Both the position numbers and the translations under genes were made by a program. Positions 24,299-36,767 of a stretch of DNA of 64,000 nucleotides are shown piece by piece (position 1 is the first letter of the stretch; each line of letters opens with the position of its first letter). The DNA is from Mycolicibacterium gilvum (lineage in GTDB: Bacteria; Actinomycetota; Actinomycetes; Mycobacteriales; Mycobacteriaceae): positions 6,076,001 to 6,140,000 of the forward strand of contig NZ_UGQM01000001.1 of assembly GCF_900454025.1 (NCBI RefSeq). Direction: 5' to 3'. Below the pieces are notes generated by a model. That model searched no databases. It was given only the letters and a program-made list of their open reading frames with translations, and was not told where the DNA came from.

Positions 24299-25387
24299 AT
24301 GACCGCAAGCAATGACGTCAGGGTCGCGATCGTCGGGGTGGGCAACTGCGCGTCCTCGCTCGTGCAGGGCGTTCAGTACTACAAGGACGCCGACGAAAAC
24401 GCCAGCGTTCCCGGCCTGATGCACGTCAAGCTCGGCGCCTACCACGTGCGCGACGTGAAGTTCGTCGCCGCGTTCGACGTGGACGCCAAGAAGGTCGGCT
24501 TCGACCTGTCCGAGGCCATCTTCGCCTCGGAGAACAACACCATCAAGATCGCCGACGTGCCGCCGACCGACGTGGTCGTGCAGCGCGGTCCGACCCTCGA
24601 CGGCATCGGCAAGTACTACGCCGACACCATCGAGATCTCCGACGCCGACGCCGTCGACGTGGTCAAGGTGCTCAAGGACGCCCAGGTCGACGTCATGGTG
24701 TCCTACCTGCCCGTCGGATCCGAAGAGGCCGACAAGTTCTACGCCCAGTGCGCCATCGACGCCGGCGTCGCGTTCGTCAACGCACTGCCCGTGTTCATCG
24801 CCTCGGATCCGGTGTGGGCCAAGAAGTTCGAGGACGCCGGCGTGCCGATCGTCGGCGACGACATCAAGAGCCAGATCGGCGCCACCATCACCCACCGCGT
24901 GATGGCCAAGCTGTTCGAGGACCGCGGCGTCACGCTCGACCGCACCTACCAGCTCAACGTCGGCGGCAACATGGACTTCCTGAACATGCTCGAGCGCACC
25001 CGCCTCGAATCCAAGAAGGTGTCCAAGACCCAGGCCGTCACCTCCAACCTGTCCGGCTCGCTGGCCGGCAAGGTCGAGGACAAGAACGTCCACATCGGCC
25101 CGTCCGATCACGTCGCGTGGCTCGACGACCGCAAGTGGGCCTACGTGCGCCTGGAAGGCCGCGCCTTCGGCGACGTGCCGCTGAACCTGGAGTACAAGCT
25201 CGAGGTCTGGGACTCCCCCAACTCGGCCGGCGTCATCATCGACGCGGTGCGCGCCGCGAAGATCGCCAAGGACCGCGGCATCGGCGGCCCGATCGAGGCC
25301 GCGTCCGCCTACCTGATGAAGAGCCCGCCCAAGCAGCTCGCCGACGACATCGCCCGCGTGCAGCTGGAGAAGTTCATCGAGGGCTGA
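24299..25387 (+). CDS. ino1: Inositol-1-phosphate synthase
   Basis: 362 residues. The NAD-binding [12 protein letters not shown] is at residues 13-24. [11 protein letters not shown] and [10 protein letters not shown] near 220-250, with [22 protein letters not shown] sequence after them, form the catalytic region. Converts glucose-6-phosphate to inositol-1-phosphate, the precursor of mycothiol and phosphatidylinositol mannosides. RBS GAGGAG lies 8 nt upstream. A long perfect hairpin follows the stop. Confidence 0.96.
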
Positions 25388-26678: not shown

Positions 26679-26743
26679 AGACGAAACGGTGTCAGACCCG
26701 CACCGTCCGACGCATTCGAATATCCACTGCGTACTGTCAGACC

Positions 26744-27640
26744 ATGGACGACACCGACGACGAGCTGGCCAGCCTGTCCGAGTTCATCTTTCTTCAGGAG
26801 AACGCACGCCAGGCGGGGGTATCGGGACCGCTGCCGACAGTGGCCCGCCTCGACGCCGGACCCGTCAGCGGCCTGAAATTCGGCGACGACGATCCGCAGG
26901 TGGTCTTCCTGCACGGCGGCGGGCAGAACGCCCACACCTGGGACACCGTGATCCTCGGGCTCGGTGCGCCTGCGCTGGCCCTCGACCTTCCCGGGCACGG
27001 CCGCTCGGCGTGGCGTGAGGACGGCGATTACGGGCCCGTGCTCAACGCCGTCGCGGTCGAACCGGTCATCCGCGAGCACGCCCCGAGCGCCCGGCTCGTC
27101 GTCGGGATGTCGCTGGGCGGGCTGACCGCGCTGCGGCTGGCCGTGACCGCCCCCGAGCTGGTCCCCCAACTCGTCATGGTCGACGTGACACCGTCCGCGC
27201 CGGAACGGCACACCCAGATGACCGACGCCCAGAAGGGCACCGTCGCCCTCGTGCAGGGTGAGCGGACGTTCCCCACCTTCGACGCGATGCTCGACGTGAC
27301 TGTCGCCGCCGCACCGCACCGCGATCGGGAATCGTTGCGGCGCGGCGTCTTCCACAACGCCAAGCGGCTCGATGACGGAACCTGGACCTGGCGCTACGAC
27401 AGCATCCGCAAGGGCGAGGGCTTCGAGGGGCTCTGGGAGGACGTCCCCCGACTCGCCACGCCGACCACGCTGATCCGGGGCGCGAACTCGTTCTTCGTCA
27501 ACGATGACGACGCATCCGAATTCGCCCGGACCGCACCGGGATTCCAGGGTGTCCACGTCGTGGAGAACTCCGGGCACTCGGTGCAGAGCGATCAGCCGCG
27601 CGTACTCGTCGACCTGCTGCGGAAAGTGCTGGCGAACTAG
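26744..27640 (+). CDS. Alpha/beta hydrolase (Rv0045c homologue, likely esterase)
   Basis: 298 residues from the ATG at 26744. Oxyanion motif VVFLHGGGQNAHTW (about 53-66), nucleophile elbow VVGMSLGGLTAL (Ser about 123), and catalytic His in VVENSGHSVQSDQP near the end. Cytosolic, with no signal peptide. The family in M. tuberculosis acts on short ester substrates. Its stop codon overlaps the stop of the convergent metalloprotease-like gene by 3 nt. Confidence 0.88.
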   Translation: MDDTDDELASLSEFIFLQENARQAGVSGPLPTVARLDAGPVSGLKFGDDDPQVVFLHGGGQNAHTWDTVILGLGAPALALDLPGHGRSAWREDGDYGPVLNAVAVEPVIREHAPSARLVVGMSLGGLTALRLAVTAPELVPQLVMVDVTPSAPERHTQMTDAQKGTVALVQGERTFPTFDAMLDVTVAAAPHRDRESLRRGVFHNAKRLDDGTWTWRYDSIRKGEGFEGLWEDVPRLATPTTLIRGANSFFVNDDDASEFARTAPGFQGVHVVENSGHSVQSDQPRVLVDLLRKVLAN

Positions 27641-29373
27641 TCGGCCTTCGCGTACACCAGATAGCCGATGTCGGTGAGAATGCCCAACTCGATGTCGCTG
27701 AGCGTTCGTACACTGGGGCCACGGCTGGTCGCCGCGTTCATCAGCTTCTCGTCCCCATCGTTGAAGGTCCAATCATCGAGGTGCGCGCCGGAACTCCCCT
27801 CGTCCCACGGGTCGGGCGTGAAGATGGGAACGTAACCGCCGTAAGCGTCCTCGGCGTGGGATCCGCCCCAGTACAGACCGCCGTCCTCACCCTCGAGATA
27901 CCCGTCGAACTCCTCCAGCCACTCGAAGTCCGAACTGATCGGGCTGGTCCCGTTCCGGGTGACGATGAAACTGTCCAGGATGTACCAGTGGCGACGGTCG
28001 CGGTCGCCGGGCTCCTCGGTCCCCGAGGTGAACCCGAACGCGTGCAGCAGCTCATGGATCGCCACGGCCCGGAAGTCGAACTTGTCGGACGGGACCTCGT
28101 CACCGATCTCCCAGCCCTTACCCCAGTTCCAGTTGATCGAGCCGTCGGCCTCCTCGCCATTCGAATCCTCGCCACCTAGCAGCTTGTTCTGCACCACCGT
28201 TCGCCAGTAGCCCGGGTCCCGGCTGATCGTGCCGCTGCCCGCCGACGCCAACGTCGATGAGCTTGCGTTGTCGGACCCTTCGACCTCGAAGGTCAGTGTG
28301 ACGGGCCTGGTCACTCGGAAGTACGCGACGAGATCGTCCGCGGCGTCCTGCAGGGCCTCCCGACGTGGCGTCGTCCAGTACTGCGAGCCGGTGGTGAAGT
28401 CGAAGTCGAAGGTGACGGCGCCCTGGTTGACCAGAGAGGTGGCTCTGCCGCTGCCCAGGGGCCGCAGCAGTTGCAGCAGGTTGACATGCAGGCCGAGATC
28501 GATGGCGCGCACATGGAACGCGTCGACACCGTCGAACTCGGCGCCGGGTGTGTAGGTGTAAGTGCCGTCGGCGTTGATCTTCACCGTGCCCGTTGCCGGC
28601 GCCCTGGTGATCACGTACCGCAGCCTGTCGCCGTCAGGATCGATCGCGCCGATGGTTCCGGTCACCGGTCCGGTGATGACGCCGGTGATCTGGACCGGAG
28701 CGATCGTCGGAGCCTGGTTGAAGAACGTGGTTCGCATCGCCACGAACGACTCCTGCATCCTCTCCTTGCGCTCATCGGTGACATCCAGCGAGTCCACCCA
28801 CTCCTGGTTTCTCTGGGTCCATGCCGCGAGTGATTCGGCGACCCGCTTCTCATAGGCGCTCTGCTCCGACACGTACGGAGGCTGGGTGGCTGCCCGGCCA
28901 GGGAGCGCGGTTGACGAAACCTGTTCTGCTACCGCAGCTTCCACTGTGGAGACGTCATCCGTGTCCTCGTCGGAGTCCTCGACGACGTCGGTGTCGACCG
29001 CGACCCTCGCGCGCTGCGTCGAGGGTTTGACCGCGACGGGCTCGGCGTCCGACTCCTCCGCGTCAGGTTCGTCGTCGGTTTCGTCGTCGGCCGCCTCGTC
29101 GTCGGTTTCGTCGGCGTCGGTCGCAGCGTCCGCATCGGTCGCAGCGTCCGGCGCGGTGGAGCCGCCATCCTCACCGGCGGAGGGTCCCGCATTGGTCGCG
29201 CCGGCGGACGCGGACTCGCTTCCGGGGTCCGCCGCCGCTGTGGCCGTCTCCGCGAGCACACCGAACCCGAGCAGGGCAGCGCCCATGCCCGCCGTCACGG
29301 CGCCGGCGTGCAACCACCGGCGCACGGCGAAGGCTTCCGACCTACGAGCTCGACGATGTGTGTGAGTCGACAC
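27637..29373 (-). CDS. Secreted VCBS-type plus zinc-metalloprotease-like protein, single module
   Basis: 578 residues. A long signal peptide (hydrophobic AVTAGMGAALLGFGVLAETA, about 25-44) precedes an Asp/Glu-rich disordered region (50-170). A Cadherin/VCBS-like Ig domain (220-292) contains DPDGDRLRYVITRAPATGTV. The protease-like domain holds HELLHAFGF (H440, E441, H444), H531 and M545, and ends with ELGILTDIGY. The HExxH, third His and Met-turn layout is metzincin-like. Last of three paralogous genes, 32 nt after the preceding one. Activity is inferred from motifs only. Confidence 0.75.
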   Translation of the reverse strand: MSTHTHRRARRSEAFAVRRWLHAGAVTAGMGAALLGFGVLAETATAAADPGSESASAGATNAGPSAGEDGGSTAPDAATDADAATDADETDDEAADDETDDEPDAEESDAEPVAVKPSTQRARVAVDTDVVEDSDEDTDDVSTVEAAVAEQVSSTALPGRAATQPPYVSEQSAYEKRVAESLAAWTQRNQEWVDSLDVTDERKERMQESFVAMRTTFFNQAPTIAPVQITGVITGPVTGTIGAIDPDGDRLRYVITRAPATGTVKINADGTYTYTPGAEFDGVDAFHVRAIDLGLHVNLLQLLRPLGSGRATSLVNQGAVTFDFDFTTGSQYWTTPRREALQDAADDLVAYFRVTRPVTLTFEVEGSDNASSSTLASAGSGTISRDPGYWRTVVQNKLLGGEDSNGEEADGSINWNWGKGWEIGDEVPSDKFDFRAVAIHELLHAFGFTSGTEEPGDRDRRHWYILDSFIVTRNGTSPISSDFEWLEEFDGYLEGEDGGLYWGGSHAEDAYGGYVPIFTPDPWDEGSSGAHLDDWTFNDGDEKLMNAATSRGPSVRTLSDIELGILTDIGYLVYAKAD

Positions 29374-29405
29374 AGGACCATTCCCCTTTTGGTTGTTCGG
29401 GCCGC

Positions 29406-32400
29406 TCAGAGCCGGCGACGGTCGGCGACGGCATACGGCGGTGTCGCGGGCGTCACGACGTGATAGCCGAGATCCCGCAGGATGGCGAGCTCCATCTCGC
29501 TGAAGATCCGCACCCCTGGGCCCGTATCCGTCTTGGCGTTCATGATCTTCTGGTCGTCACCGTCGAAGGTGAAATCGTCGAGGTGTGAGAACGAGCTGCC
29601 ACCCTCGAACTCCCCCGGTGTGAACAACGGGATCAGATATCCGTCGTAGGCCTCGATCGCGTTCGATCCCCCGAAGTAGAGGGCCCCGTCATCCCCGGTC
29701 AGCTTGGAGTCGTTGAGGGTCGCCCACTCAGCGAGGAAGAACACCCTGGTACCGCGCACGTTGACCATCAATCGGTCGAACCTGCTGCGATTCGCGCCGA
29801 GATTCTCGCCCGGCTCACCCAACGACGACAGGAACCCGAAGGAGTGCATGAGCTCATGGATCGCGGTCGTGACGAAGTCGTACTCATCGGCCGTCACTTC
29901 ACCGTCGAGCGCCCACTCATGGTCAGCGAAGTTCCACGAGATCGTGCCATCTGCTCTGTCGCCGTTGGCATCCCGACCGGTCTGCAGCTTGTGTTGCACG
30001 ACGGTGTCCCAGTAGCCGGGCAGCTTCGAGATGTACGGACTCGTGGCCGAGGCGAGTCCCCGCTCCGGATCTTCCGGATCCTCGAGATTGACGTCGTAGG
30101 TCAACGTGACGGGCCGGTTGACACGAAAGTACTCCTGCAGGTCCCGGGCTACCTGCTCCAGCGCGTCCTGGCGATCCTCGGTCCAGTCGTCACCGGTGTA
30201 GTTGAAGACGAACCTGATCGCGTTCTGGTTGATCAGGTTGAAGGCGCTGGTCCCGATACCGCGGAACGGGTTGAGCAGGTTCACGTGCAGACCGGAGTCT
30301 ATGGCCATGACCCTGAACGAATCGACGCCGTCGAATGCCGCTCCCGGTGTGTAGGTCCACGTTCCGTCGACGTTCAGGACGACCGAGCCCTGGCGGGGTC
30401 CGCTGACGATGCGGTAGCGGATGGCGTCACCGTCGGCATCCTCCCCGTTGATCTGTCCGGTGATCACGCCGGCGACAAGGCCGGTGACCTGAACCGGATC
30501 GACCGTCGGGGCCCGATTGAGGAAGGTCGTACGGAACGTCGCGAAGGACTCCTCCAGTTCCGCTTTGCGCTCGTCACTGACATCGAGGGAGTCAATCCAC
30601 TCCTGGTTGCGTGCGCTCAGACCGTCCACGATGTCGGCGACGACCTCGGCCCAGGTCCGGCGCGGGGACAAGGCGGTCGGTGCGGCCACCGGCGGCCGTG
30701 CCGGTTCTGCTTCGTCCTCGCCGCCGTCCTCTGCGCCGTCCTCTGCGCCGTTCTCCTCGGACTCCTCGGACTCCTCGTCCGTGGCATACGGGGGATTCTC
30801 CGGGTTCACCACGTAATAGCCGAGATCCTCCAGGACGCCCAGCTCGACCTCGCTGAAAACCCTTGGCGCAGGACCTTCGTCGGTTCCCGAGTTCATGATC
30901 TTCTGGTCGTCGCCCGCGAACGTCGCATCGCTGAGATGGCTGATCGAACTCGCGCCGCCCCAGATCGTCGAGGTGCGCAACGGCACGAGGTACCCGCCGT
31001 AAGCCTCGACGGCGTTCTTGCCGCCGAAGTAGAGCCCGCGGTCACCGCCCGTAAGCTTCGGATCGTTCACCGACGACCACTGTCCGTTGGTGAAGACCGA
31101 TCGGCCGTCTGCGCTCACGATGAACCGGTCGTACTCCTCACGATTCGCGCCCTGGTTCTCACCGGGCCCCTGCAGCGTGGAACCCCAGCCGAACGCGTGC
31201 ATCATCTCGTGAATCGCCACCGAGGTGAAGTCGAACTCCTCGCTGGAGACCTCGTCACCCAGCGCCCACTCGTTCCCGTCGCCCCAATTCCATGAGATCT
31301 CACCGTCGGCTTCTTCGCCGTTGGCGTCCTCACCGGTCTGCAGCTTGTTCTGCACGACCGTGCGCCAATAGCCCGCCGCAGTCGAAATACGTTCGCTGCC
31401 TGCCGATGCGAGCGTTCCGGGCTTGTCCTCCTCGTTCACGTCGAAGGTCAGTGTGACGGCCTCACGCACGCGGAAGTACGCAGTCAGGCTCGCTGCGACC
31501 TCCTCCAGTTTCTCCCGGCGTTCCTCGGTCCACTCGTCACCCTCATAGGTGAAGTCGAAGCGGATCGCGTTCTGGTTGATGAGGTTTTCGCCCGTCGTGC
31601 CCATCCTTCGGAACGGGTTGAGCAGGTTGACGTGCAGGCCGGCGTCGATCGCCATCACGCGGAAGGTGTCGACACCGAGAAAGCCCTCACCCGGGGTGTA
31701 GGTGTAGCCGCCGTCGTCGTCGAAGACGACAGTGCCGAATTTCGGCCGCGTCACCAATCGGTAGACGAGCTCGTCGCCGTCGGCGTCCTCGGCGTCGACC
31801 TTGCCGGAGATCGCGCCGCCCAGAAGGCCCTCGATCTGCACCGGATCGACGGTGGGCGCCTGGTTGAAGAAGGTTCGGCGCAGCGACCGCATCGCTGCTT
31901 CGAGATTGGCCTTCGCGTCGTCAGAGGCGTTGAGGTTGTTGATCCACGCGACGGTGTCGTCGTTCCATTTCTCAAGAACGTCGGCGACGACGTCGTCCCA
32001 GGTCTTGCGTTCCCGCAGCCACGGAGGTGCCGGCGCCGGTGGCTGTTTCACCTCGGCCGGCGGCTCCTCGTCCTCTTCCTGCACGGCCGCGTCGTCTTCC
32101 ACAGTGACGGGGGCACTCGCCACCCGCACCAGATTCGGCTTCGCCGCGCGGTCCTGCACGCCCTCCGCGGCGGTGTCGATTTCGGCGGCGTCGCTTTCGG
32201 TTTCGGTGTCGGTGTCGGTGTCGGTGTCGGCCGTGTCGCGGCGGGAGTTGCTGCCCTTCGAGGAGGCCCTGTCGTCGGCATCGTCGTCGGCGTCTTCTCC
32301 GGCGTCGGTCGAATCGGAGGCTGCGTCGGTGGTCGACGAGGACTCGTCACTATCCGCCGACGAGGATGCCCGCGGCGACGCGCTCGTCGTGTCCGTCGGA

Positions 32401-32582
32401 CTGTCTGCTGCCGCTGTCCCGGTCGAGGGCCCCATCAGCGAGAAGCCCAGCAACGCCGCTCCCATTCCCGCCGACGCCGCGCCGAGCTTCAGCCACTGCC
32501 TCACCGGGAAATCGGCGGACCTGCCCTGCGCTGAGTTCTGCTTGCGGCGTGCGTGATTCGTGCGCGACCTTGCCATGGACAA
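29406..32582 (-). CDS. Secreted VCBS-type plus zinc-metalloprotease-like protein, two modules
   Basis: 1058 residues: signal region (26-60, VRQWLKLGAASAGMGAALLG), acidic linker (60-185), then two full modules (about 190-598 and 638-1050) joined by a Glu-rich linker. Module 1 has HEMMHAFGW (H458, E459, H462), H549, M563. Module 2 has HELMHSFGF (H909, E910, H913), H1000, M1014. Each module starts with an Ig/VCBS-like domain after a short helical lead (W-DSL-VSDERKA). The internal duplication points to repeated module copying. Middle gene of the operon, 36 nt after the first. Confidence 0.75.
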   Translation of the reverse strand: MSMARSRTNHARRKQNSAQGRSADFPVRQWLKLGAASAGMGAALLGFSLMGPSTGTAAADSPTDTTSASPRASSSADSDESSSTTDAASDSTDAGEDADDDADDRASSKGSNSRRDTADTDTDTDTETESDAAEIDTAAEGVQDRAAKPNLVRVASAPVTVEDDAAVQEEDEEPPAEVKQPPAPAPPWLRERKTWDDVVADVLEKWNDDTVAWINNLNASDDAKANLEAAMRSLRRTFFNQAPTVDPVQIEGLLGGAISGKVDAEDADGDELVYRLVTRPKFGTVVFDDDGGYTYTPGEGFLGVDTFRVMAIDAGLHVNLLNPFRRMGTTGENLINQNAIRFDFTYEGDEWTEERREKLEEVAASLTAYFRVREAVTLTFDVNEEDKPGTLASAGSERISTAAGYWRTVVQNKLQTGEDANGEEADGEISWNWGDGNEWALGDEVSSEEFDFTSVAIHEMMHAFGWGSTLQGPGENQGANREEYDRFIVSADGRSVFTNGQWSSVNDPKLTGGDRGLYFGGKNAVEAYGGYLVPLRTSTIWGGASSISHLSDATFAGDDQKIMNSGTDEGPAPRVFSEVELGVLEDLGYYVVNPENPPYATDEESEESEENGAEDGAEDGGEDEAEPARPPVAAPTALSPRRTWAEVVADIVDGLSARNQEWIDSLDVSDERKAELEESFATFRTTFLNRAPTVDPVQVTGLVAGVITGQINGEDADGDAIRYRIVSGPRQGSVVLNVDGTWTYTPGAAFDGVDSFRVMAIDSGLHVNLLNPFRGIGTSAFNLINQNAIRFVFNYTGDDWTEDRQDALEQVARDLQEYFRVNRPVTLTYDVNLEDPEDPERGLASATSPYISKLPGYWDTVVQHKLQTGRDANGDRADGTISWNFADHEWALDGEVTADEYDFVTTAIHELMHSFGFLSSLGEPGENLGANRSRFDRLMVNVRGTRVFFLAEWATLNDSKLTGDDGALYFGGSNAIEAYDGYLIPLFTPGEFEGGSSFSHLDDFTFDGDDQKIMNAKTDTGPGVRIFSEMELAILRDLGYHVVTPATPPYAVADRRRL

Positions 32583-32618
32583 CCTTTCGAGGTTCCGGAG
32601 TACTGGAGTTCGGAGGGG

Positions 32619-34460
32619 TTACTTGCGGCGCGTCCGAAACAGGAACACGAATCCGATCAGTGCCGCCGGTGCGTACGGGGGCTGCTGCGGCAACACCACG
32701 GTGTATCCGAGGTCCCTGAGGATGCCGATCTCCATGGCGCTGAACAACCTTGGTGACGGCCCTGTGGGGGTTTCGGCGGTCATGACCTTCATCCTGTCGC
32801 CGGTGAACGTCAGATCGTCGACGTGCAGAACGGAACTGCCGCCCTTGAACTCCCACGGAGTGAACAGAGGAATCAGGTATCCGTCGTAGCCCAGGACGGC
32901 GTTCGGACCACCGAAGTAGAGCCCCCCGTCCTCACCTTCCAGCTTCGGGTCGTTCGATCGTTGCCATCGGCCCAGCACGAACGGGTCCGTGCCGCGCGCC
33001 GTCACGATGAACCGGTCGAAGACACTCAGATCGAGATCCTGTGCGGAGCCGGGTTTGCCCAGCGACGACAGGAAGCCGAACGAGTGCATGAGCTCGTGTA
33101 CGGCCACGGCCGTGAAGTCGTACTCCGCCGCCGACACCACGTCTCCGAGAGCCCATTTGTGGTCGGCGAAGTTCCACGTGATCCAGCCGTCGGTCTTGGC
33201 CCCGTTGACATCACGTCCGGTCTGCAGCTTGTGCTGGACCACCGTCGGCCAATAACCCGGCAGTTTCGAGATGTAGTCGCTTCCGGCTGCCGCGAGGCCA
33301 CGCTCGGGATCCGTGGGGTCCTCGAGCCTCACGGCGTAGGTCAGGGTCACCGGACGATCGACGCGGAAGTATTCGAGCAGACCAGCGGCGACGTCCTCGA
33401 GCGCCTTCTGCCGAGGCTCCGTCCAATCCGCGCCGGTGTAGGTGAACTCGAACGTGATCGCGTTCTGATTGATCAGGCCGACCGCGCTCGTCCCGACACC
33501 TCGCAACGGGTCGAGCAGGTTCAGGTTGGACCCGGCGTCGAGGGCGACCACCCGGAAGGTGTCGACGCCATCGAAGTTCGCCCCCGGGGTGTAGGTGTAG
33601 GTGCCGTCGGCGTTGACGACCACCGATCCTTCTCGGGGATTGCCGGCCAGCCGGTAGACGATCCTGTCTCCGTCGGCGTCCGAGGCCTCGATCCTGCCGG
33701 TGATCGCGCCGCTGACCAGCCCCGTGACCTGGATCGGGTTCAGCGTGGGAGCCTGGTTCAGGAACGTGCGCTTGAACTGCGCGAACGACGCCGCCAGCTC
33801 GGCCTTGCGCGCCTCGGAGACGTTGAGCGAATTGATCCATGCCTGGTTGCGCTGAGTCCAGGTGTCGACGATCCGAGAGACGGTCTCGCCGCGGGCGCGC
33901 CGGGGCGCCAGCCAGTCCGGGGCTTTCACCGGCGGCGCCGGCTGCTGCTGTTCCTGCTCCTCTTCTGCCGGCTCCGCCGCCGCGCCCGACAGCCGTGCCG
34001 CCCTCGGCTTCGTCGCTCCTTGCGGGGCGGCCTCGGTGTCCTCCGCCTCGCCGGTGTCGATGTCGCCGGTGTCGATGTCGTCGTGCTCGGCGGCGTCCTC
34101 GTCGTCTGCCGGCCGGACGTCGCGCCTGGATCGGCTCGCCGTGCCGGCCTCGCTGTCGGAGTCGTCGGCCGACGCACTTCCGGAGGTGGTGGCGCCGGCT
34201 TCCCGGTCGGCCCCACCCGCCGGTTTGCCGGAGGGGCTGTCCCCGGCCGAGGAGGACGACTGCGCCGAGGAAGTGTCCCCCGTGCCGTCGGCCGCGGCGG
34301 TTCCGGTCGCCGGACCCAACAGAGAGAAGCCCAGCAATGCCGCACCCATCCCCGCAGAGGCCGCGCCGAGCTTCAGCCACTGCCGGACCGGAAAGCCTGC
34401 CGCCCGCCGAACACTTTGATCTTGTTTATTCAGTGGTCGTTTCGCGGGTGGCTGCGACAT
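32619..34460 (-). CDS. VCBS-type plus zinc-metalloprotease-like protein, single module with C-terminal hydrophobic tail
   Basis: 613 residues. Signal region at 25-57 (VRQWLKLGAASAGMGAALLG, then FSLLGPATGTAAAD), acidic linker (58-180), Ig/VCBS-like domain (235-310) and protease-like domain with HELMHSFGF (H455, E456, H459), H546 and M560. Unlike its two neighbours it ends in PPYAPAALIGFVFLFRTRRK, a short hydrophobic stretch plus basic tail, which could hold it in the membrane or envelope. First gene of the operon, divergent from the PhoX-type gene across 234 bp. Confidence 0.75.
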   Translation of the reverse strand: MSQPPAKRPLNKQDQSVRRAAGFPVRQWLKLGAASAGMGAALLGFSLLGPATGTAAADGTGDTSSAQSSSSAGDSPSGKPAGGADREAGATTSGSASADDSDSEAGTASRSRRDVRPADDEDAAEHDDIDTGDIDTGEAEDTEAAPQGATKPRAARLSGAAAEPAEEEQEQQQPAPPVKAPDWLAPRRARGETVSRIVDTWTQRNQAWINSLNVSEARKAELAASFAQFKRTFLNQAPTLNPIQVTGLVSGAITGRIEASDADGDRIVYRLAGNPREGSVVVNADGTYTYTPGANFDGVDTFRVVALDAGSNLNLLDPLRGVGTSAVGLINQNAITFEFTYTGADWTEPRQKALEDVAAGLLEYFRVDRPVTLTYAVRLEDPTDPERGLAAAGSDYISKLPGYWPTVVQHKLQTGRDVNGAKTDGWITWNFADHKWALGDVVSAAEYDFTAVAVHELMHSFGFLSSLGKPGSAQDLDLSVFDRFIVTARGTDPFVLGRWQRSNDPKLEGEDGGLYFGGPNAVLGYDGYLIPLFTPWEFKGGSSVLHVDDLTFTGDRMKVMTAETPTGPSPRLFSAMEIGILRDLGYTVVLPQQPPYAPAALIGFVFLFRTRRK

Positions 34461-34694
34461 AATTGACCCCCTCGACAGTGCCTGCGCGGGACGCTACCGC
34501 ACCGCCGTGCCGTCTGTCAGCAAATTCCGTAGAGAATCTCCGCCCGCAATCGCCGCCGCGTGAGACGCTGGGGCCCGGCGGTACGTCAACTGCTGTTCAC
34601 CCCAAGTCTGCCCGCCGCTGGCCCGACTGCCGTAACTTCCCGCACGTTCGGCCGTCCAGCCCCGGCCGGGACCCCGTTGGAAGGAACCGCACCC
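34461..34694. promoter_or_regulatory. Divergent promoter region between metalloprotease operon and phoX
   Basis: Around 34595, GTTCACC is followed by imperfect copies at 11-bp steps (GTCTGCC at 34606 and GCTGGCC at 34617). Direct repeats of GTTCACC every 11 bp are the PHO box of actinobacterial PhoP/RegX3. Only the first copy is exact, so this is a weak candidate for phosphate control of the phosphatase and perhaps the protease operon. Confidence 0.35.
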
Positions 34695-36767
34695 ATGGCG
34701 CTCGTACCGCTCAATCTCCTTGTCACCCATGACGGCAAGTCCAAGCGCCAGCACGTCACCTGCGTTCACAAGTGCGGCGACGCGTGCTCGAAACCGGTGC
34801 CCAACACCAGCGACAACGCGTACTTCGGCGACATCGCCAAAGCCGTCTCCCGTCGTTCCGTCCTGCAGGCCGGCGGAATGGCCGTGCTCGCCGTCGGAGC
34901 CGGTTCCGCGCTGGCCGCCTGCTCCAACACCTCCCAGCCCGCGCCGACGACCTCGTCGTCGACCGCTGCCGCGCAGCCGCCGGCGGGCATGAACTTCGCA
35001 TCCGTCGCACCCAACAGCGAGGATGTCGTCGTCGCCGCCGACGGCTACGAGCAGGCCGTCGTCATCAGCTGGGGCGACCCGGTCCTGCCCGGCGCACCCC
35101 AGTTCGACGTCACCAAGCAGACCGGCGCCGCGCAGCGCGCACAGTTCGGCTTCAACAACGACTTCGCCGGCCTGCTGCCGGTCGAGGGACAGCCGGGTCG
35201 CTTCCTGCTCGTCACCAACTTCGAATACGCCACACCGCAATTCATGTTTCCCGGCTACAACCCCGACGCCCCCACCCGCGACCAGTTCGACGTGGAGATC
35301 GCCGCGATGGGAATGGGTGTCGTCGAGGTCGAGCGCACCCCTGAGGGCGGCCTGCGGCCGGTGATGGGCCGGTACAACCGTCGCATCACCGCAGACTCCC
35401 CGTTCACGCTGACCGGTCCGGCCGCCGGAACCCCCTTCGTGAAGACCGCGGCAGACCCCGACGGCCGCACGGTGTTGGGCACGATCGCGAACTGTGCCGG
35501 CGGTGTGACCCCCTGGGGCACAGTGCTTTCCGGCGAAGAGAACTTCCACGCCTACTTCGGCGCACCCGAAGGTTCACCCGCACCGGGTCCGGTCGACGCC
35601 GACCGCAACGACAGGTACGGCATCGCGCTGGAACCCTCGGAGCTCCAGTGGGAGACCTTCGATCCACGCTTCGACCTGGCCGCAAGCCCGAACGAGGTCA
35701 ACCGGTTCGGCTACGTCGTGGAACTCAATCCGTGGGACCCGGCCTCGACGCCGGTGAAACACTCCGCGCTGGGCCGGTTCAAGCACGAGGGCGCCAACAT
35801 CCACGTCACCAGCGACGGGACCGTCGTGGCCTACACCGGCGACGACGAACGCTTCGACTACATGTACAAGTTCGTCTCCACGCGCAAGATCCAGCCGGGG
35901 ACCTCCGCCGCGGCCATGGCGAACAACATGGCCATCCTCGACGAGGGAACGCTGTACGTCGCCAAGCTGTCGAGCGACATCCCCGCCGCCGAGATCGACG
36001 GGTCGGGCGAGCTTCCCGCCACGGGATCGTTCTCGGGGACCGGGACATGGCTCCCGCTGCTGCGCTCCGGTCCAGACGGGCAGGCCGAGTCGCTGATCGA
36101 CGGCATCACCGCCGCGGAGGCCGCCGTCTTCACCCGGATGGCCGCCGACAAGGCCGGCGCCACCAAGATGGACCGCCCCGAGGATTTCGAAGCCGACCCG
36201 AAGACCGGCAAGGTCTACGTCGCACTGACCAACAACACCAAACGCGGCACCGACGGCGAGCCCCCGGCGGACGCGTCGAATCCCCGCAACGACAACAAGA
36301 GTGGGCAGATCCTGGAGATCACCGACGACCACGCGGGCACCTCGTTCACCTGGGACCTGCTGCTGGTCTGCGGCGATCCGGCCGCTGCCGACACCTACTA
36401 CGGCGGATTCGACAAGACGAAGGTCAGCCCGATCTCCTGCCCGGACAACCTCGCGTTCGACAGCCACGGCAACCTGTGGATCTCGACCGACGGCAACGCG
36501 CTCGACTCCAACGACGGCCTGTTCGCCGTCGCGCTGGACGGCCCCAACCGCGGTGAGACCAAACAGTTCCTGACCGTCCCCCTCGGCGCGGAAACCTGCG
36601 GACCCGTCATCACCGACGACCTCGTCACCGTGTGCGTGCAGCATCCCGGGGAGAACGACGAGAACAGCATCGACAGCCCGCAGTCGCGGTGGCCCGAGGG
36701 TGGCAACGGCACCGCACGGCCGTCGGTGGTCGCGGTGTGGAAGAGCGGCGGCAACATCGGCGTCTAG
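34695..36767 (+). CDS. PhoX-family phosphatase (DUF839), Tat lipoprotein-like
   Basis: 690 residues from the ATG at 34695; an earlier in-frame start lacks a good RBS. A Tat-type motif SRRSVLQAGGMAVLAVGAGS (about 52-71) leads to LAAC, a lipobox, so it is probably exported folded and lipid-anchored. The unusual 50-residue lead before the twin Arg carries CVHKCGDAC. The PhoX beta-propeller includes CAGGVTPWGTVLSGEENFH (about 272-290) and FKHEGANIHVTSDG, which supply calcium and iron ligands. Hydrolyses phosphoesters outside the cytoplasm. Confidence 0.9.
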   Translation: MALVPLNLLVTHDGKSKRQHVTCVHKCGDACSKPVPNTSDNAYFGDIAKAVSRRSVLQAGGMAVLAVGAGSALAACSNTSQPAPTTSSSTAAAQPPAGMNFASVAPNSEDVVVAADGYEQAVVISWGDPVLPGAPQFDVTKQTGAAQRAQFGFNNDFAGLLPVEGQPGRFLLVTNFEYATPQFMFPGYNPDAPTRDQFDVEIAAMGMGVVEVERTPEGGLRPVMGRYNRRITADSPFTLTGPAAGTPFVKTAADPDGRTVLGTIANCAGGVTPWGTVLSGEENFHAYFGAPEGSPAPGPVDADRNDRYGIALEPSELQWETFDPRFDLAASPNEVNRFGYVVELNPWDPASTPVKHSALGRFKHEGANIHVTSDGTVVAYTGDDERFDYMYKFVSTRKIQPGTSAAAMANNMAILDEGTLYVAKLSSDIPAAEIDGSGELPATGSFSGTGTWLPLLRSGPDGQAESLIDGITAAEAAVFTRMAADKAGATKMDRPEDFEADPKTGKVYVALTNNTKRGTDGEPPADASNPRNDNKSGQILEITDDHAGTSFTWDLLLVCGDPAAADTYYGGFDKTKVSPISCPDNLAFDSHGNLWISTDGNALDSNDGLFAVALDGPNRGETKQFLTVPLGAETCGPVITDDLVTVCVQHPGENDENSIDSPQSRWPEGGNGTARPSVVAVWKSGGNIGV

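Follow-up and report, generated by a model that had tools for sequence, protein, structure and literature searches.

Leishmanolysin (GP63), which we take to be MEROPS family M8, is disulfide-rich and possesses a cysteine switch. Its active-site motif, HExxHxxGF, is followed by a long insertion, a third His within an SH pair, and then a Met. In the matrixins and karilysin (M10), the third His comes right after HExxHxxGxx. A layout like that of leishmanolysin is found in the window analysed here, a stretch of 64,000 nucleotides from Mycolicibacterium gilvum (NZ_UGQM01000001.1, positions 6,076,001 to 6,140,000). Read as open reading frames (ORFs), three minus-strand genes at 27637–34460 of the window hold four protease modules, termed M1, M2a, M2b and M3. 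They probably encode three zinc endopeptidases, secreted or bound to the envelope, whose four catalytic domains have a metzincin fold of the leishmanolysin kind; we put the probability of this reading at roughly 0.8.

All four modules carry the motif HExxHxFG(F/W) (HELLHAFGF, HEMMHAFGW and, twice, HELMHSFGF), and in each the second His is followed by a further His after exactly 87 residues and by a Met after 101. The residue numbers agree with those of the original prediction, which had described four copied, secreted metalloprotease-like modules with invariant ligand spacing. For the four window copies this invariance holds, but it does not extend to the wider relatives, in which the third His lies 80 to 103 residues on. 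Among 136 HExxH stretches from 123 proteins (the best 120 of 257 search matches and the three window proteins), a regular expression located the third His in 119, at a spacing of 87 in 88 of these and within a range of 82–91; in the remaining 17 it is visible by eye. Judged from these sequences, the exact spacing of 87 is inherited, not constrained.

The ligands themselves are better conserved. H, E, H, the distal H and M show no variation across an alignment of 70 sequences that are 48–79% identical to M3 (69 of 108 length-selected proteins, P0001 included, plus the window module, so that two of the 70 come from the window), and the pattern is therefore more than chance. HExxH and the distal His are again invariant in two selected sets of more distant sequences (33 and 50 rows, the latter being the M1 alignment), in which PEP-CTERM proteins from other phyla are represented, and the Met is kept in at least 90%. 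Homologues without HExxH, which the original prediction had singled out as telling against it, amount to 4 of 96 further proteins, all of them incomplete (cut) sequences. Protein searches can reveal such a loss of the motif, whereas the set of loci used below (the best 80 of 108, the pattern hits being at least those counted) cannot, because its search pattern contains HExxH.

As predicted, an immunoglobulin (Ig)-like domain precedes every protease module, and Pfam assigns it to Big_9 in all four cases. Ig and cadherin domains are typical of adhesins, and this would fit modules that are catalytically dead adhesins keeping the fold. Such a role is very unlikely, given the invariance of the catalytic residues in the 70 aligned sequences and the absence of HExxH solely in cut ones.

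The metzincin-type layout proposed in the original prediction is upheld, as far as predicted models allow, by the fold match of two modules, the invariant ligands and a profile alignment to leishmanolysin. HExxH and a third conserved His, the zinc ligands of the metzincin clan, are present, as is a Met at the place of a putative Met-turn, and the predicted (AlphaFold) models of M1 and M3 adopt the metzincin fold. For both models, the best match in VIA-align is leishmanolysin (PDB 1lml), about 5 Z units above the matrix metalloproteinases (MMPs). The MMPs are the next-best folds and the top matches of Foldseek, and weak Pfam M10 matches (E 0.00085 to 0.11, all under the cut-off) also point towards matrixins with the third ligand inside HExxHxxGxxH. 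Matrixin membership was rejected on the ligand layout: HExxHxxGxxH is absent from every module, no His or Asp stands three residues past the Gly, and it is the distal His that is invariant. Together with the fold ranking, this makes M10 proteases a highly improbable alternative.

A Pfam scan of the window proteins gave no peptidase family above cut-off; PF01457 (M8) scored 12.9 bits against a gathering score of 21 for one of them and did not match the other two. The search against peptidase families suggested in the original prediction yielded NF038122 (metallo_LGF, NCBIfam) as the nearest named family, with 49.8, 60.5 and 36.8 bits (E 4.6e-13, 2.5e-16 and 4.5e-9) against a cut-off of 80. The two are homologous by profile. 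In hhalign, the protease family aligns with NF038122 at 98.5% (E 1.6e-15), with the distal His and the Met in register. The cut-off was reached in none of 61 relatives' genomes, and 5 of 24 genomes of other phyla searched hold a member above it. Three such members (L116–L118, 334 to 238 bits) have HE(I/L)GHxxGF, an SHW(K/Q)D ligand 87–103 residues on, and VPEP ends; another, L119, has a candidate His at 108 in a different context. We read the window proteases as belonging to a sister branch of NF038122, both groups apparently with the leishmanolysin layout.

Several results weigh against the leishmanolysin-like assignment. VIA-align re-scores only Foldseek's match list; Foldseek alone returned nothing under 0.001 for the protease domain, its best match being MMP-7 at 0.014, and leishmanolysin was absent among the 50 matches listed. 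The PDB profile alignment to leishmanolysin has an E value of 0.012, and its individual stretches are each non-significant. When hhalign was started from the four window modules alone, the alignment to NF038122 (95.7%) covered the first half up to HExxH and left the distal ligand uncovered. Finally, the protein P0216 has no Met within 130 residues, L118 has a Phe in its place, and L120, an NF038122 member at 94 bits, has no distal His within 160 residues.

Each module comprises a helical stretch, the Big_9 Ig/cadherin domain and a protease domain some 270 residues long; in the predicted model of M3, two helices lie ahead of the Ig domain. The leaders extend to AAAD and pass into an acidic low-complexity linker. 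Over about 400 residues, the four modules are 49–66% identical to one another, and the repeats are also visible at the DNA level. The gene 2 protein contains an additional Big_9 stretch ahead of M2a, two in total; its protein record (P0004) has 1056 aa, and the TTG start of the ORF probably lies two codons too early. Since the intergenic gaps measure just 32 and 36 bases, the three genes likely form an operon, as had been predicted, of which gene 3 is presumed to be the first gene. The coordinates are collected in Table 1.

Table 1. Protease genes, domains, active-site motifs and neighbouring genes in the window (His/His/Met: residue numbers of second His, third His and Met)
Feature	Position	Strand	Basis or remark
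Gene 1, P0001, 578 aa: leader, acidic linker, helical hairpin, Big_9, module M1	27637..29373	-	ORF + Pfam
Gene 2, P0002, 1058 aa, double protease: M2a (N-terminal) and M2b	29406..32582	-	ORF + Pfam
Gene 3, P0003, 613 aa: module M3, hydrophobic basic C-terminal tail	32619..34460	-	ORF + Pfam
Big_9 Ig-like domain, gene 1, residues 219-292	28498..28719	-	Pfam
Big_9 Ig-like domain ahead of M2b, residues 689-762	30297..30518	-	Pfam
Big_9 Ig-like domain, gene 3, residues 235-309	33534..33758	-	Pfam
M1 HELLH, residues 440-444; His/His/Met 444/531/545	28042..28056	-	third His codon 27781-27783, Met codon 27739-27741
M2a HEMMH, residues 458-462; His/His/Met 462/549/563	31197..31211	-	third His codon 30936-30938, Met codon 30894-30896
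M2b HELMH, residues 909-913; His/His/Met 913/1000/1014	29844..29858	-	third His codon 29583-29585, Met codon 29541-29543
M3 HELMH, residues 455-459; His/His/Met 459/546/560	33084..33098	-	third His codon 32823-32825, Met codon 32781-32783
Gene 3 C-terminal tail, PPYAPAALIGFVFLFRTRRK	32622..32681	-	sequence reading
PhoX alkaline phosphatase, divergent neighbour, likely start near 34695	34560..36767	+	E 8.4e-145
Alpha/beta hydrolase, convergent neighbour, other edge of the slot	26738..27640	+	conserved neighbourhood
Ino1, beyond the alpha/beta hydrolase	24299-25387		

In the mechanism that we infer, zinc binding and proteolysis would be common to the window modules. The zinc would be held by the two His of the HExxHxxGF active-site helix and by the third His about 87 residues on, past the long insertion; the Glu would act as general base, and the Met would lie beneath the site. 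The N-terminal leader would export the protein, and the acidic linker and Ig domain may give it reach, keeping the active domain away from the envelope. The most likely use would be the cutting of environmental or envelope proteins outside the cell. A cysteine switch cannot provide latency, because P0001, P0002 and P0003 contain no cysteine; among the matches listed, 106 of 120 relatives are likewise cysteine-free.

A domain-profile search of the M. gilvum genome gave four matches, all in the window, and thus no fifth protease domain. The whole-protein search gave 18, of which 14 lie outside the window and fall on leader or Ig parts, one of them extending as far as residue 385. Leader, linker or Ig parts of P0003 are matched by other large proteins of the same genome, at G000:C1:4993448-4994692, C1:3894493-3895332 and C1:2997577-2998137, and the combination of a secretion leader with an Ig part may therefore be a wider mycobacterial format.

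Within the genus, 87 of 296 genomes carry the family, M. gilvum among them. In a sample across the Mycobacteriaceae, 5 of 201 genomes were positive, all five from this same genus, and no member was found in the other 29 genera sampled. Among the best 80 of 108 loci, the named carriers include M. aurum, M. vaccae, M. chubuense and M. frederiksbergense, and also uncultured aquatic actinobacteria, Methylococcaceae, Verrucomicrobiota and Planctomycetota. The family thus extends beyond mycobacteria, and, going by record titles, its relatives in other phyla come from lake, groundwater and methanotroph genomes. Plasmids and phages gave no match to the family. One locus, L070, lies on a contig labelled as a Bifidobacterium breve metagenome-assembled genome; its product is an actinobacterial member grouping with those of uncultured aquatic actinobacteria, and the contig is probably misbinned. 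In two relatives (G027:C4:24338-25132 and G387:C22:133469-134251) the protease match is interrupted by a single stop codon, and some copies of the family may therefore be decaying.

This distribution bears on the possibility that the proteases serve mycobacterial virulence by attacking host proteins. A passage of PMC6224180 describes leishmanolysin as serving Leishmania against macrophages, and a comparable role for the window proteins would follow that example. Under a third of the genus carries the family, the other genera sampled lack it, and relatives occur in aquatic and methanotroph genomes of several other phyla; although not decisive, since some named carriers may be opportunists, these points leave action on host proteins with a very small probability. 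A free-living role fits better than action on a host.

The protease is easily overlooked, because the records in the protein lists are named for their "Ig-like", "cadherin-like" or "VCBS repeat" parts or are called hypothetical. Searches of the open-licence literature found no paper on bacterial leishmanolysin homologues as metzincins, nothing naming NF038122 or metallo_LGF, and nothing on a secreted Ig-like metalloprotease of Mycolicibacterium. For bacterial leishmanolysin-like peptidase M8, the sole match concerned Schistosoma. Among the matches listed for mycobacteria and metzincin, none dealt with this family, judged by title and start of abstract, and none for exosortase or PEP-CTERM in Mycobacterium or Actinobacteria was on this topic by title.

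The protease genes occupy a chromosomal slot with the conserved order Ino1, hydrolase, protease, PhoX. This placement, with the alpha/beta hydrolase on one side of the protease and PhoX on the other, was seen in 8 of 14 genome stretches, which had been selected non-randomly from top-scoring and multi-copy matches, and also in 9 of the 54 named loci; some genomes are common to both sets. Beyond the hydrolase, what is presumably Ino1 occurs in 16 of 17 slot loci; two further loci show one edge. On the far side of the divergent PhoX follow a luciferase-like oxidoreductase and then what we take to be a GntR-type regulator. The adjoining PhoX suggests nutrient scavenging, and the proteases might possibly supply nutrients alongside this phosphatase. 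This is the weakest step of the mechanism, drawing on the neighbourhood only, and the many paralogues located outside the slot speak against a link with PhoX. Another protease branch (L030, L033, L035, L038, L041 and L063) occupies a second conserved neighbourhood, where a long membrane-type protein is encoded close by, and a third neighbourhood is common to L040, L047, L050, L068, L071 and L075.

The number of modules per slot is one in 14 of 17 loci, two in G408 and G257, and three in G292, compared with four in the M. gilvum window; L027, with the PhoX edge only, has two. An expansion of the family, as claimed in the original prediction, is borne out insofar as the same slot holds one to four modules, but the four window modules are not the product of one recent burst. 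A single clade of these modules was rejected by the approximately unbiased (AU) test (p 3e-64). In a careful tree of 38 chosen modules (a quick tree held 113, with 6 short matches left out), M2a and M2b each pair with the matching module of a two-module protein of G292 (100/99 and 99/98), and this group of six also takes in M3 (96/90). The partner of M1 is a module from G257, a different species (96/93). The M2 fusion therefore probably predates the split from the G292 species. With M1 outside and the others grouped, the cluster consists of an old paralogue and younger duplicates; the extra modules would have arisen by duplication in place and by one gene fusion common to another species.

The third protein ends in AALIGFVFLFRTRRK. 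That one member is held in the membrane, as had been suggested, is plausible for this protein, in view of its hydrophobic stretch and basic end, as in many relatives. Tails could be classified in 69 of the 80 loci (54 of 55 actinobacterial, 15 of 25 others). A hydrophobic run of 10–15 residues (median 13) with a basic end is present in 31 of the 54 actinobacterial loci, and none of these 54 C-termini contains a PEP motif. All 15 classified loci of other phyla are tailed, with a longer run of 15–18 residues (median 17), nine with PEP and five with VP(V/L)P. Of their ten unclassified loci, L101 has a PEP tail and the remaining nine end otherwise, giving PEP-CTERM-type tails in 16 of 25 loci. The actinobacterial tails align with those of the PEP-CTERM relatives.

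Exosortase was found in 12 of 12 tested genomes of other phyla, which had been chosen because their member is tailed, and in none of 17 actinobacterial genomes with members. As a partner in the genus it was rejected, being absent from the M. gilvum genome and from 36 other genomes of the genus. Exosortase matches occurred in 3 of 61 genomes, all from other families of the order, and one of these was over the Pfam cut-off: G041, with matches at C260:726-1535 and C317:3584-4393 in an assembly of 350 contigs that is 86% complete. These matches could be real or contamination.

The presence of the tail in over half of the classified actinobacterial loci, and its alignment with PEP-CTERM tails, would suit a live sorting signal for an unknown actinobacterial enzyme. 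A tail profile, however, had no match beyond the family under E 0.16 in the M. gilvum genome or under E 0.59 in nine other genomes, where all 14 matches below E 1e-4 were family members (about 5 of them new, because 9 loci of the same genomes had gone into the profile). Nor did an adjacent processing partner recur in the 14 largest clusters listed from an analysis of 43 loci outside the slot; apart from the protease, these clusters represent overlapping frames or one of two neighbourhoods that five to seven loci have in common. As many members, including two of the three window proteins, also lack the tail, a live signal is unlikely. Most simply, the tail is read as a relic, shortened or decaying, that acts as a membrane anchor. 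It is a speculative and rather doubtful extension that the family crossed between exosortase-bearing Gram-negatives and actinobacteria, that the tail lost PEP and shrank by about 4 residues, and that it is now a plain anchor or the substrate of an undescribed, dedicated actinobacterial sorting enzyme. Being rooted by choice or midpoint, the trees do not show the direction of such a transfer.

Set beside the described systems, the window modules resemble leishmanolysin in the HExxHxxGF motif, the long insertion, the third His in SH and the Met behind it. They differ from it in the distance from the second to the third His (87 residues as against 66) and from there to the Met (14 as against 11), in an identity of 17–18%, and in the lack of cysteines. 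The matrixin and karilysin domain is shorter than theirs. With NF038122, apart from L120, they share HExxHxxGF and the distal SH ligand; the window proteins have a helical hairpin and an Ig domain in addition. The PEP-CTERM proteases of Methylococcaceae and Verrucomicrobiota, which belong to the same family, have a protease domain about 32–40% identical, with the same ligands; unlike the window proteins, they measure 310–361 aa, and a Pfam scan of 10 of them revealed no Ig domain. These relatives, with PEP-CTERM and exosortase, and the actinobacterial members, in which the tail is shortened and no exosortase was detected, lend themselves to a paired study of C-terminal sorting. In this family the leishmanolysin layout is available as a clear bacterial branch, cysteine-free in the window proteins and of a size suited to expression, and this could reveal how the insertion between the second and third ligands works and where the M8 layout originated. 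By predicted shape, the nearest solved relative of this little-studied bacterial family would be leishmanolysin, and the cluster extends a known kind of protease rather than constituting a wholly new one.
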